A stretch of DNA of 64,000 bases, taken from contig NZ_JACSJI010000001.1 in the NCBI RefSeq assembly GCF_014349105.1, positions 310,001 through 374,000 on the forward strand, in the 5' to 3' direction. Every line of letters starts with the position of its first letter. The first letter of the stretch is position 1. The notes below the pieces were generated by a model that worked only from the letters and a program-made list of their open reading frames with translations, did not search any database and had not been told where the DNA came from. Below, piece after piece: positions 29,648 through 33,215 of the stretch. This stretch comes from Caulobacter sp. 17J80-11. GTDB lineage: Bacteria > Pseudomonadota > Alphaproteobacteria > Caulobacterales > Caulobacteraceae. Made by a program: the position numbers and the translations under genes.

Positions 29648-31360
29648 TCAGGCGGCCTGGGCCGGCGCCGCGTCGGGTTCGCGTCCGGATCGGGCCAGCG
29701 TCCCGCGATAGCGAACCACCAGGCCCACCAGCGGCAGACCGATCTCGACGTGGAAGCGGAAGCGCCCGTCCTCCGCCGCCTCGTACATCTCGCCGCCGGG
29801 CGCGAGCGCGGCCGGCATGGGAACGCCGAACATCCGCCAACCGCGCACCGCCAGCTTCAGGCGCTCGCCTTCCAGCACCAGGGCGAAGTCGCAGGCCATC
29901 GGGCCGAACCTCTCCGTGACGAGGCCCTCGGCGCGCCTGCGGCCCTCCGACTGCACGCTGAAGAACGAGTGTCCGGCGAAGGTCCTGCGCCAGACCTCGC
30001 CGGCGGGCGTGCTGCGGAAGCGGACGGTCACCGGCACGTCGCGCCCGGCGCGCGGGAAGCCGATCACGGCGGCGACCAGGGTGGCCAGGGGATTGCGCCC
30101 CCGCTCGACGTCGGCGACGCCCTCGAAGGTCGTCTCGCCGCCGTCTCCGAGGTCGTGCAGGACGCGGACGGGCTCGGGCAGGCGCTCGAAGGCTTCGCCG
30201 AGGATGCGGCGGTAGAGCGGGGCGTCGGGGGGCGCGGGCTCGCGCACGCCGGTGTGAATGGCTCGCCGGGCGAACAGCCGCTCGTAGTCGGCCATGTCCA
30301 GTTCGTGCGTCGCCGGGCGGGCGCCGACGGCGGGCGTCTTGCCGTCGAGCATGCGCCGCACGATCGCCTCGACGCCCATCGACGGAATGTGCGGGCCGTC
30401 GTCGCCCTCGGCGGTCAGGTGCCAGGACCGGGTGATCGAGCGACCGTCGGCGGCGGCGCCGGCGACCTCGACGAACATGCCGCCACGATGCTCGCCCCAG
30501 CGGAGCGCGTTCATCACGCGGTTGGCCAGGGGCGCCAGCGGGGCGAGCGAGGGCGCCAGGCCCGACCGGACCAGGCCGGCCAGGGCGTTGAGCACGCGGT
30601 GCAGGCTCTCCGGCAGCGTGCCCGCGCCCATCCAAACTTCGCGCACCTCCGGCCAGAGCTCGGGCATCACGCGCAGATCCGGCACGTCGACCAGCGAGAA
30701 GCGCATGTTCTTCAGCGGCACGCGGCCGGGCGGACGGATCACGAAGCGCCGGCTCTCGGCCCAGCCGGTCCCGAGCGCAGGGCGGCCGTCGCGGACCAGC
30801 GGCACGGGTTTTCCGGCATAGCCGATCACCGCCCGCACGACGTTCAATCCCACCTTCGCGAAGGGCGAGGGGGCGATGCCGGCGACCACGCGATCGACCC
30901 TGGCCATGTCGTGCGCAAGGCTGCGCACCACCGTCGCGGTGAGCAGCGGGCAGCTGCTGACGCCGGACAGCACGAAGCGGCCCCGCGCCCCGGCGACCTC
31001 GTCGAAACGGCCGATCCCCAGCACGAAGTCCGAACCGTCGGCCAGGTCGAGGTAGTCGCAGCCGACCGCCAGCGCCGCCTCGACCACCCGGTAGGGCGCC
31101 TCGCCATAGCCCTGGAAGGGGCCGCTGGCGTCGACCACCATGTCGGGGGCCAGGGCCGCGAGCTGCGCGCCCACGTCGCCGTCGCGGTCGAACACGGCGG
31201 TTTCGATCCGCGCGCCGCCCGACGGCAGGGTCGCGGCGAAGGCGTCGGCTTTCGACCGCGACCGGCCGGCCAGCACCAGCGTCAGGCGCGGCTCGTCCGC
31301 CAGGAGTCGGGCCAGGCGGCCGCCGAACATGCCGTAGCCGCCGAGGATCAGCAGCTTCAT
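29648..31360 (-). CDS. Saccharopine dehydrogenase-like / DUF4166 fusion protein
   Basis: A 570-residue protein in two parts. The N-terminal 380 residues have a Rossmann fold of the saccharopine dehydrogenase-like type (LILGGYGMFGGRLARLLA at residues 3-20, then DASGPFQGYGEAPYRVVEAAL and VGCDYLDLADG). The C-terminal 180 residues match the DUF4166 pattern, with RILGEAFERLPEPVRVLHD and WRRTFAGHSFFSVQ. The reaction is unknown. It starts by ATGA overlap with the DCC-family gene upstream. The pairing of these two genes is conserved in related bacteria, to my recollection, suggesting a shared redox role. Confidence 0.8.
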   Translation of the reverse strand: MKLLILGGYGMFGGRLARLLADEPRLTLVLAGRSRSKADAFAATLPSGGARIETAVFDRDGDVGAQLAALAPDMVVDASGPFQGYGEAPYRVVEAALAVGCDYLDLADGSDFVLGIGRFDEVAGARGRFVLSGVSSCPLLTATVVRSLAHDMARVDRVVAGIAPSPFAKVGLNVVRAVIGYAGKPVPLVRDGRPALGTGWAESRRFVIRPPGRVPLKNMRFSLVDVPDLRVMPELWPEVREVWMGAGTLPESLHRVLNALAGLVRSGLAPSLAPLAPLANRVMNALRWGEHRGGMFVEVAGAAADGRSITRSWHLTAEGDDGPHIPSMGVEAIVRRMLDGKTPAVGARPATHELDMADYERLFARRAIHTGVREPAPPDAPLYRRILGEAFERLPEPVRVLHDLGDGGETTFEGVADVERGRNPLATLVAAVIGFPRAGRDVPVTVRFRSTPAGEVWRRTFAGHSFFSVQSEGRRRAEGLVTERFGPMACDFALVLEGERLKLAVRGWRMFGVPMPAALAPGGEMYEAAEDGRFRFHVEIGLPLVGLVVRYRGTLARSGREPDAAPAQAA

Positions 31361-31809: not shown

Positions 31810-32129
31810 CGGCGAAGCTTACTCCAAACACCGTCCGAAGCCGAAAACGGGCTGCTCAGGACCAAAAATTTCCAATCGTGCGCGCAAGAACCGCCGCCGC
31901 GCCGGCATCGCCGCCTCGAGCGCCGGATCGGATCATCCCTTCATTGCCTGCCGCAGTGCACAAATCGTGCGCTCCGGAGCGGCCCTGACGCGAAAATACC
32001 GCCCGTTGCCGCTCCTGTTTCGGGGCCTGCGGCGTCGAGGCCACAGGCCGGGTCCCTCGCAATTGGTCCGCTTGCAGAAAACGCGGGTTCCTGAACAGAG
32101 TTAAGCGAACCTTAACAGTGGGGGCTGGG
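31810..32129. other. Divergent intergenic region upstream of the patatin-like gene
   Basis: A 320-base region between divergent genes, noticeably less GC-rich around 31810-31880 and 31960-32010. No gene is seen in it. It holds the promoter for the DCC/DUF4166 pair on the left and the CtrA-type box (32101-32116) on the right. No clear -35/-10 elements can be assigned. Confidence 0.55.
32101..32116 (+). promoter_or_regulatory. Perfect CtrA-type binding box
   Basis: TTAA-N7-TTAAC (TTAAGCGAACCTTAAC) matches the full Caulobacter CtrA consensus with exact spacing. It ends 14 bases before the ATG of the patatin-like gene. That is too close to the start for a normal -35 activation site, so repression, or a start further downstream, should be considered. 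Confidence 0.6.
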
Positions 32130-33215
32130 ATGGCGCGCTTCGTGCTGTCGATCGACGGGGGAGGCGTGCGCGGGCTGCTGCCGGCGCTGGTCCTGCAGGA
32201 GCTGCTAGGGCGCGTGGGGGAGCGCCTGGGCCGCCGTCCCGAGGCGCACGAGTGCTTCGACCTGATCGCAGGAACCGAGACCGGGGGTCTGCTGGCCGCC
32301 GGGCTGACCGCGCCGGCCGGGGCCGATCGCGACCGGGCTGTGCTGGGGGTGGACGGACTGGTCGCCTTCTTCCGCAAGCGCGTGCGCAAGATCTATCCGA
32401 ACGGCTGGTTCGCGCCGCGCGTGGGCGAGGGGCTGTACGACCACCGCCGCCTGGAGCGCCTGCTCGGCGAGTTGTTCGGCGCGACGCGGCTGAGCGAGTG
32501 CCTCGCTCCGGTGATGATGACCGCCTACGACCTGGAGGCGCGCCGGCCGGCGCACCTGGTGGCTGGCGGCCCCTACGCCTGGAGCGACCTGGACGCGAGC
32601 TATCGCGACGCCGTGCGCGCGACGACGGCCACCCCGACCTGGTTCCAGCCGGCGGAGGTGAAGAACGCCTTCGCGTCCGGCAAGCCGATGCCGCTGATCG
32701 GCGGGACCCTGTTCGCCAACGACCCGGCGATGGCCGTGCTGGCCGAGGCCGCGCGCATGGACTGGGGCCACGAGAAGATCTTCGTGCTGTCCCTGGGCAC
32801 GGGGCGTCCGACCCGGGCCTTCCCGGCCAGGAAGACGCGCAAGTGGACGCCGGAACGCTGGCTGGACCGGCGCAAGGGCTCGGCCCTGATCGCCATAGCC
32901 GCTCAGGCGGCGGCCGACGGCGTGGCCTACCAGGCGGACCTGTTCCTCAACCAGGGCGGCGAGCTGCAGTACACCCGCATCGACGGCCCGCTGAGCGCCG
33001 GCGTCAGCGAGCGCAGCGATCTGGCCTCGGGGCGCAATCTGAAGGCGCTGGAGCGCCAGGCCCAGGCCTGGATCGCCGAGCACTCGCGCGACCTCGACGC
33101 CTGGGCTCAGCGGCTGGCCCGCCGGCTGGGCTGGATGGACCCGGCGGCGGCCGTGACCGCGCCTATGGCGGCGCCTGTCGGGTCGACGGAGGTCGCCGCC
33201 GCGGTGGCGGCCTGA
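32130..33215 (+). CDS. Patatin-like protein lacking both catalytic residues
   Basis: A 361-residue patatin-like protein. The oxyanion-hole loop is intact (SIDGGGVRGLLPALVL, residues 7-22), and the fold-defining stretch FDLIAGTETGG follows. In active patatin lipases that motif is GTSTGG: the nucleophilic Ser is Glu50 here (codon GAG). The usual DGG of the catalytic aspartate is IGG (I190, in PLIGGTLFANDPA). Both dyad residues are therefore replaced, which predicts no lipase activity. The frame is intact, so it is probably a functional pseudo-enzyme. ATG at 32130 is preferred to a GTG at 32118. It lies directly behind a CtrA-type box. Confidence 0.8.
   Translation: MARFVLSIDGGGVRGLLPALVLQELLGRVGERLGRRPEAHECFDLIAGTETGGLLAAGLTAPAGADRDRAVLGVDGLVAFFRKRVRKIYPNGWFAPRVGEGLYDHRRLERLLGELFGATRLSECLAPVMMTAYDLEARRPAHLVAGGPYAWSDLDASYRDAVRATTATPTWFQPAEVKNAFASGKPMPLIGGTLFANDPAMAVLAEAARMDWGHEKIFVLSLGTGRPTRAFPARKTRKWTPERWLDRRKGSALIAIAAQAAADGVAYQADLFLNQGGELQYTRIDGPLSAGVSERSDLASGRNLKALERQAQAWIAEHSRDLDAWAQRLARRLGWMDPAAAVTAPMAAPVGSTEVAAAVAA

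Follow-up and report, generated by a model that had tools for sequence, protein, structure and literature searches.

A patatin-fold protein that has lost both catalytic residues is retained in a small Caulobacteraceae genus and is probably a regulated, non-catalytic binding protein

The window, a stretch of 64,000 nucleotides (C11:310001-374000) from the 3.8-Mb genome of Caulobacter sp. 17J80-11, which belongs to a small Caulobacteraceae genus, encodes a patatin-like protein in which the catalytic Ser/Asp dyad is replaced. The loss of the dyad is well supported by alignment. We consider it likely that the protein is a pseudo-phospholipase, probably cell-cycle-regulated and unstable, which binds a lipid or a partner without catalysis. 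Hydrolysis of lipids has presumably been lost, and we infer that the pocket and surface are reused to bind a lipid or protein partner. A CtrA box upstream of the gene and an Ala-Ala C-terminus suggest a regulated protein. The catalytically dead patatin would thus have become fixed in one small genus, where it may have a stage-limited role in lipid binding or regulation, without catalysis.

The coding sequence (32130..33215, + strand) starts with ATG and is open throughout its 361 codons, in keeping with the clean frame described in an earlier reading of the DNA made from sequence only. The product belongs to the patatin family. It matches the PF01734 Patatin profile with 66.2 bits against a cut-off of 27.7 (E 5.8e-18), and a search of the PDB with the same protein returned 1oxw (E 4e-25). 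The patatin segments IDGGGVRG, ATTATPTWF, NDP and SLGTG are all retained. An AlphaFold model, computed from a 42-row alignment that comprised the window protein, its sister and viral homologues, has a pLDDT of 88 and a pTM of 0.88, with residues 344-352 below 50; a model from two sequences alone reached a pLDDT of only 34. The closest structural match to the model is Patatin-17 (1oxw; Z 43.4, rmsd 1.8 Å over 322 residues, 27% identity), followed by the CBASS phospholipases CapV and CapE (Z 34-37, with 35-37 for CapV). The patatin fold is thus predicted, with good confidence, to be intact.

The oxyanion-hole or anion-binding loop DGGGVRG (residues 9-15; 32154..32174, +) is preserved, as the sequence-only reading had said, and its residues 10-15 (GGGVRG) match the GGGxRG of active patatins. 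The nucleophilic Ser of the GxSxG motif is absent: codon 50 is GAG (32277..32279, +) and the motif reads GTETGG in both species, which bears out the Ser to Glu substitution claimed earlier. This replacement takes a minimum of two base changes. The catalytic Asp, expected in DG[GA], is also missing. It had been reported as replaced by Ile190, a misalignment by one residue. The segment PLIGGTLFANDP pairs without gaps with the homologue pattern xLIDGGVFxNxP, so the Asp position falls on Gly191 (GGC; 32700..32702, +; LIGGTLF against LIDGGVF) and Ile190 is the conserved Ile/Val that precedes it. The earlier view that both catalytic residues are replaced therefore stands, with the position and identity of the second amended. 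Thr193 is within the range of homologues with intact Ser and Asp, some of which have DGT. No replacement acid for the lost Asp is evident in the homologue alignment. The substitution of the dyad is neither chance nor sequencing error, because both codons recur in a second species, assembled independently (NZ_JAAIVC010000061).

This second species, Caulobacter sp. 17J65-9 (L007), is the sole other genome of the genus available, and its protein is 97% identical, with the same Glu and Gly codons. The two genes differ at 67 of 1083 bases, 52 of these at third positions. By the NG86 method, dN/dS over the full gene is 0.086. Residues 1-335 alone give 0.021, below the value of all seven neighbouring genes (0.03-0.49), among them TrxB (0.062), an epimerase (0.033) and a UDP-sugar dehydrogenase (0.065). 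There are 12 amino-acid changes, nine in residues 336-356 and three in the 335 core residues. It is well supported by this comparison, a single pairwise one since the genus has just two sequenced species, that strong purifying selection acts on the core and that the gene is retained rather than decaying. Neither genome of the genus has the dyad; together with the low core dN/dS and the high-confidence fold, this favours the description 'retained pseudo-lipase' given in the sequence-only reading. The genes near the patatin also include a DUF4166/saccharopine-dehydrogenase-like gene (29648-31351, -), which is 70% identical between the sisters (dN/dS 0.49) and is flanked on either side by genes of 93-98% identity; recombination or fast divergence could possibly account for this.

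Across 299 genomes from the family, a search at E 1e-20 found the protein in this genus only. The same order (L071-L080) has relatives of 31-41% identity, as do f17 (L008) and f181, probably the Methylobacteriaceae, with one in 77 of 87 genomes; the f181 loci (L039, L041-L070) are the nearest, at up to 41% identity. Ser is present in every order, f17 and f181 locus read whose motif is covered, and Asp in all of them but two of f181. The same-order relatives keep Ser and Asp wherever readable, and f181 has Ser in 31/31 and the Asp of DG[GAT] in 29/31. The two exceptions, L057 and L062, keep Ser and read IGGD or VGGD at the DGG motif, the Asp being displaced by two residues. Homologues on viral contigs have Ser in 80/80, with two flagged for Asp; the retrieval pattern was biased to kept motifs, yet allowed Glu at the Ser position. 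Intact orthologues, which the sequence-only reading took as evidence against itself, are thus found only outside the genus, at 31-41% identity, and both genomes within it are without the dyad. Judged from these alignments, the intact relatives date the loss, and the loss is fixed within both genomes of the genus.

In a wider sample of the class, Ser is lost in two further alphaproteobacterial lineages. L016:739-1782 (-), a patatin of another family, is a separate double loss, in which Ala stands in place of Ser and Asn in place of Asp (GSATGG, NGG). A one-genus clade, L022, L027 and L086 (74% identity across three genomes), has GxGTG for GxSxG and keeps the Asp. A single clade of the Ser-less P0001, L007, L016 and L022/L027 was rejected (AU p 0.006), in a test affected by long branches and by a grouping picked after the first tree was seen. 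On this phylogenetic evidence, Ser is lost separately in the other two lineages. The window protein has a stem of 1.9 changes per column and the L022 group one of 2.5; a long stem proves nothing by itself, because two Ser-intact sequences also have branches above 2. A mobile or phage origin was considered and rejected: the viral_contigs stretches matched by a query peptide encode no relative, and the plasmid and phage matches are distant (below 40% identity). At the locus of the DCC1-like neighbour in two other genera, the stretches examined hold no patatin. An active paralogue as partner was also considered; the genome has three further patatins, all distant, and L002, the only one of L001, L002 and L004 whose motifs the pattern read, has Ser and Asp intact.

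Upstream of the gene a motif scan located a full CtrA-type box, TTAAGCGAACCTTAAC (32101..32116, +), which ends about 13-14 bp before the ATG and is identical in the sister. Its TTAA-N7-TTAA core (32101-32115, then C) is the single perfect match in the 64 kb, with none in 100 shuffles. Of the 60 alignment columns next to the ATG, one differs between the species, against 32/262 further upstream. Conservation of the box is weak evidence on its own, because a random 16-mer would stay unchanged at this divergence with a chance of 0.18; the rarity and position of the box argue more strongly. In 763 kb of the same genome outside the window there is one full TTAA-N7-TTAA box, and the other spacers (4-11 except 7) gave two matches in total, about 0.4 per Mb per spacer. 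That one box precedes a gene for a coiled-coil, Sel1-repeat protein (L183:1887-4646, G000 C11), which resembles PodJ by architecture, with no named family model confirming it; podJ is a known CtrA-motif target and carries a full motif (PMC4287350).

We infer that CtrA regulates the pseudo-patatin, and the box would tie its expression to the cell cycle. Full boxes in C. crescentus activate when near -35, and one at -14 is believed to repress ctrA P3 (PMC4287350). The direction of the effect here can be suggested only by geometry, because the standard arrangement for activation would put the start of transcription inside the open reading frame. The distance from box to ATG would fit repression better than activation; transcription would then begin near 32115 and give a 15-nt leader containing GGGGG (32120..32124, +), a putative weak Shine-Dalgarno-like run. 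A scan for sigma-70 promoters gave no match.

The C-terminus consists of two distinct parts. Residues 336-356 (33135..33197, +) form a low-confidence, probably disordered and fast-evolving tail, with 9 of its 21 positions changed relative to the sister. The final five residues, AAVAA (357-361; 33198..33212, +), are invariant, being identical in both species at the DNA level too, and are a candidate C-degron of the ClpXP type (or for FtsH). An xAA end is the ClpXP C-motif-1 in E. coli (PMC9775585), and AAVAA presents such an end, predicted to be exposed behind the low-confidence tail. An Ala-Ala end, mostly HAA after a variable linker, is found in 27/31 of the f181 homologues, although these loci are interrelated and mostly drawn as top matches, so that there are fewer independent cases than the fraction implies. 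A degron is plausible on this pattern, and the Ala-Ala end would keep the protein short-lived. Against it, Ala-rich ends are cheap in a genome of 71% GC, and 5/80 viral homologues also end in AA. The last four residues, AVAA, presumably resemble the C-terminus of the ssrA tag in Caulobacter; tmRNA was not found in the stretches examined. In f181 the loci L042-L070 show a conserved C-terminal HAA or NAA after the variable linker, with Ser intact, which suggests regulated proteolysis of those patatins too.

Three other explanations were weighed against a regulated, non-catalytic binding protein. The gene might be decaying, or recently broken and on its way out, as the loss of both catalytic residues and the failure to find it in the other Caulobacteraceae genera searched would allow. 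The frame is however intact in both species, only three of 335 core residues have changed and the 16-bp upstream box is the same in the sister; the dN/dS led us to reject a pseudogene, and we give decay the least credence of all. The protein might instead be an enzyme of changed chemistry, in which Glu50 in the nucleophile elbow takes the part of a carboxylate nucleophile or of a base and the oxyanion hole is preserved. Asp is the nucleophile in dehalogenases and epoxide hydrolases of the alpha/beta-hydrolase fold. In favour of such an enzyme are the presence of Glu, rather than Ala or Gly, at the very position of the nucleophile, the retained oxyanion loop and the strong selection. Glu50 is nevertheless unlikely as a new nucleophile because the partner acid has gone as well, with none to replace it in the alignment, and the other losses of Ser in the family, to Gly and to Ala, follow a pattern of simple loss. 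We regard changed chemistry as very improbable, and its fullest form, a new type of enzyme in the patatin fold with Glu50 as carboxylate nucleophile and under CtrA cell-cycle control, as a shade more so.

The remaining explanation accepts a retained dead patatin and gives it an unrelated role, in housekeeping, in defence or as a decoy, with no link to CtrA or to regulated proteolysis. Among solved structures, CBASS phospholipases are its closest relatives next to Patatin-17, and both the NCBIfam CBASS_lipase model and PADLOC effector models match the protein. The NCBIfam score, however, is 119.4 bits against the 200 required, no SMODS nucleotidyltransferase of the PF18144 family, the CD-NTase component looked for, was matched in the genome, and none of the neighbours of the pseudo-patatin is a defence or CBASS gene. 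A CBASS effector was rejected on this score and on the missing SMODS cyclase. The CtrA box and the Ala-Ala end further favour cell-cycle regulation, and an unrelated role appears unlikely, though it is to be taken seriously. We thus prefer a lipid- or partner-binding protein under cell-cycle control.

Compared with Patatin-17 (1oxw/4pkb) and the bacterial patatin-like phospholipases, the protein shares the fold over residues 1-337 (Z 43) and the GGGxRG oxyanion loop, SLGTG, NDP and ATxAxPT, and differs in having Glu50 for Ser and Gly191 for Asp. The f181 patatins, its nearest relatives, likewise mostly end in Ala-Ala but have kept Ser in all cases and Asp in all but two. CapV and CapE are alike in fold, and E. 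coli CapV also has 361 residues; the window protein differs in its lost dyad, in scoring below the NCBIfam CBASS cut-off and in coming from a genome in which the SMODS cyclase was not found. Patatins without the Ser are already known in parasites and plants. Toxoplasma TgPL1 is patatin-like and lacks the catalytic Ser and PLA2 activity, and its mutant nonetheless has a phenotype (PMC10513453); it is eukaryotic and its other catalytic residues are said to be present, whereas both dyad residues are missing here. Plant pPLAIII (GxGxG) has no nucleophilic Ser in the GxSxG box (PMC4204433), a motif that the GxGTG of L022, L027 and L086 resembles; it has Gly where the window protein has Glu, and the plant papers treat pPLAIII as working phospholipases. 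In a limited literature search we found no report of a bacterial patatin that lacks both dyad residues yet is under selection, nor, as weaker evidence, any patatin termed a pseudo-phospholipase in the open literature. What is new here is the combination, in a bacterium, of double dyad loss, strong selection, a CtrA box and an Ala-Ala end. A lipid binder controlled by CtrA and targeted by ClpXP, if this is what the protein is, would connect the state of the membrane lipids with the alphaproteobacterial developmental programme. The variant CapV Q329R acts without its Ser (Q329R/S64A), affecting motility and division, and this Ser-independent effect still requires the Arg of GGGxRG and the Asp (PMC9095652). 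The parallel is only partial because the window protein keeps the Arg and not the Asp. If it is a lipid binder under CtrA and ClpXP, it would offer a small, testable model for the non-catalytic action of patatins at which CapV Q329R already hints.
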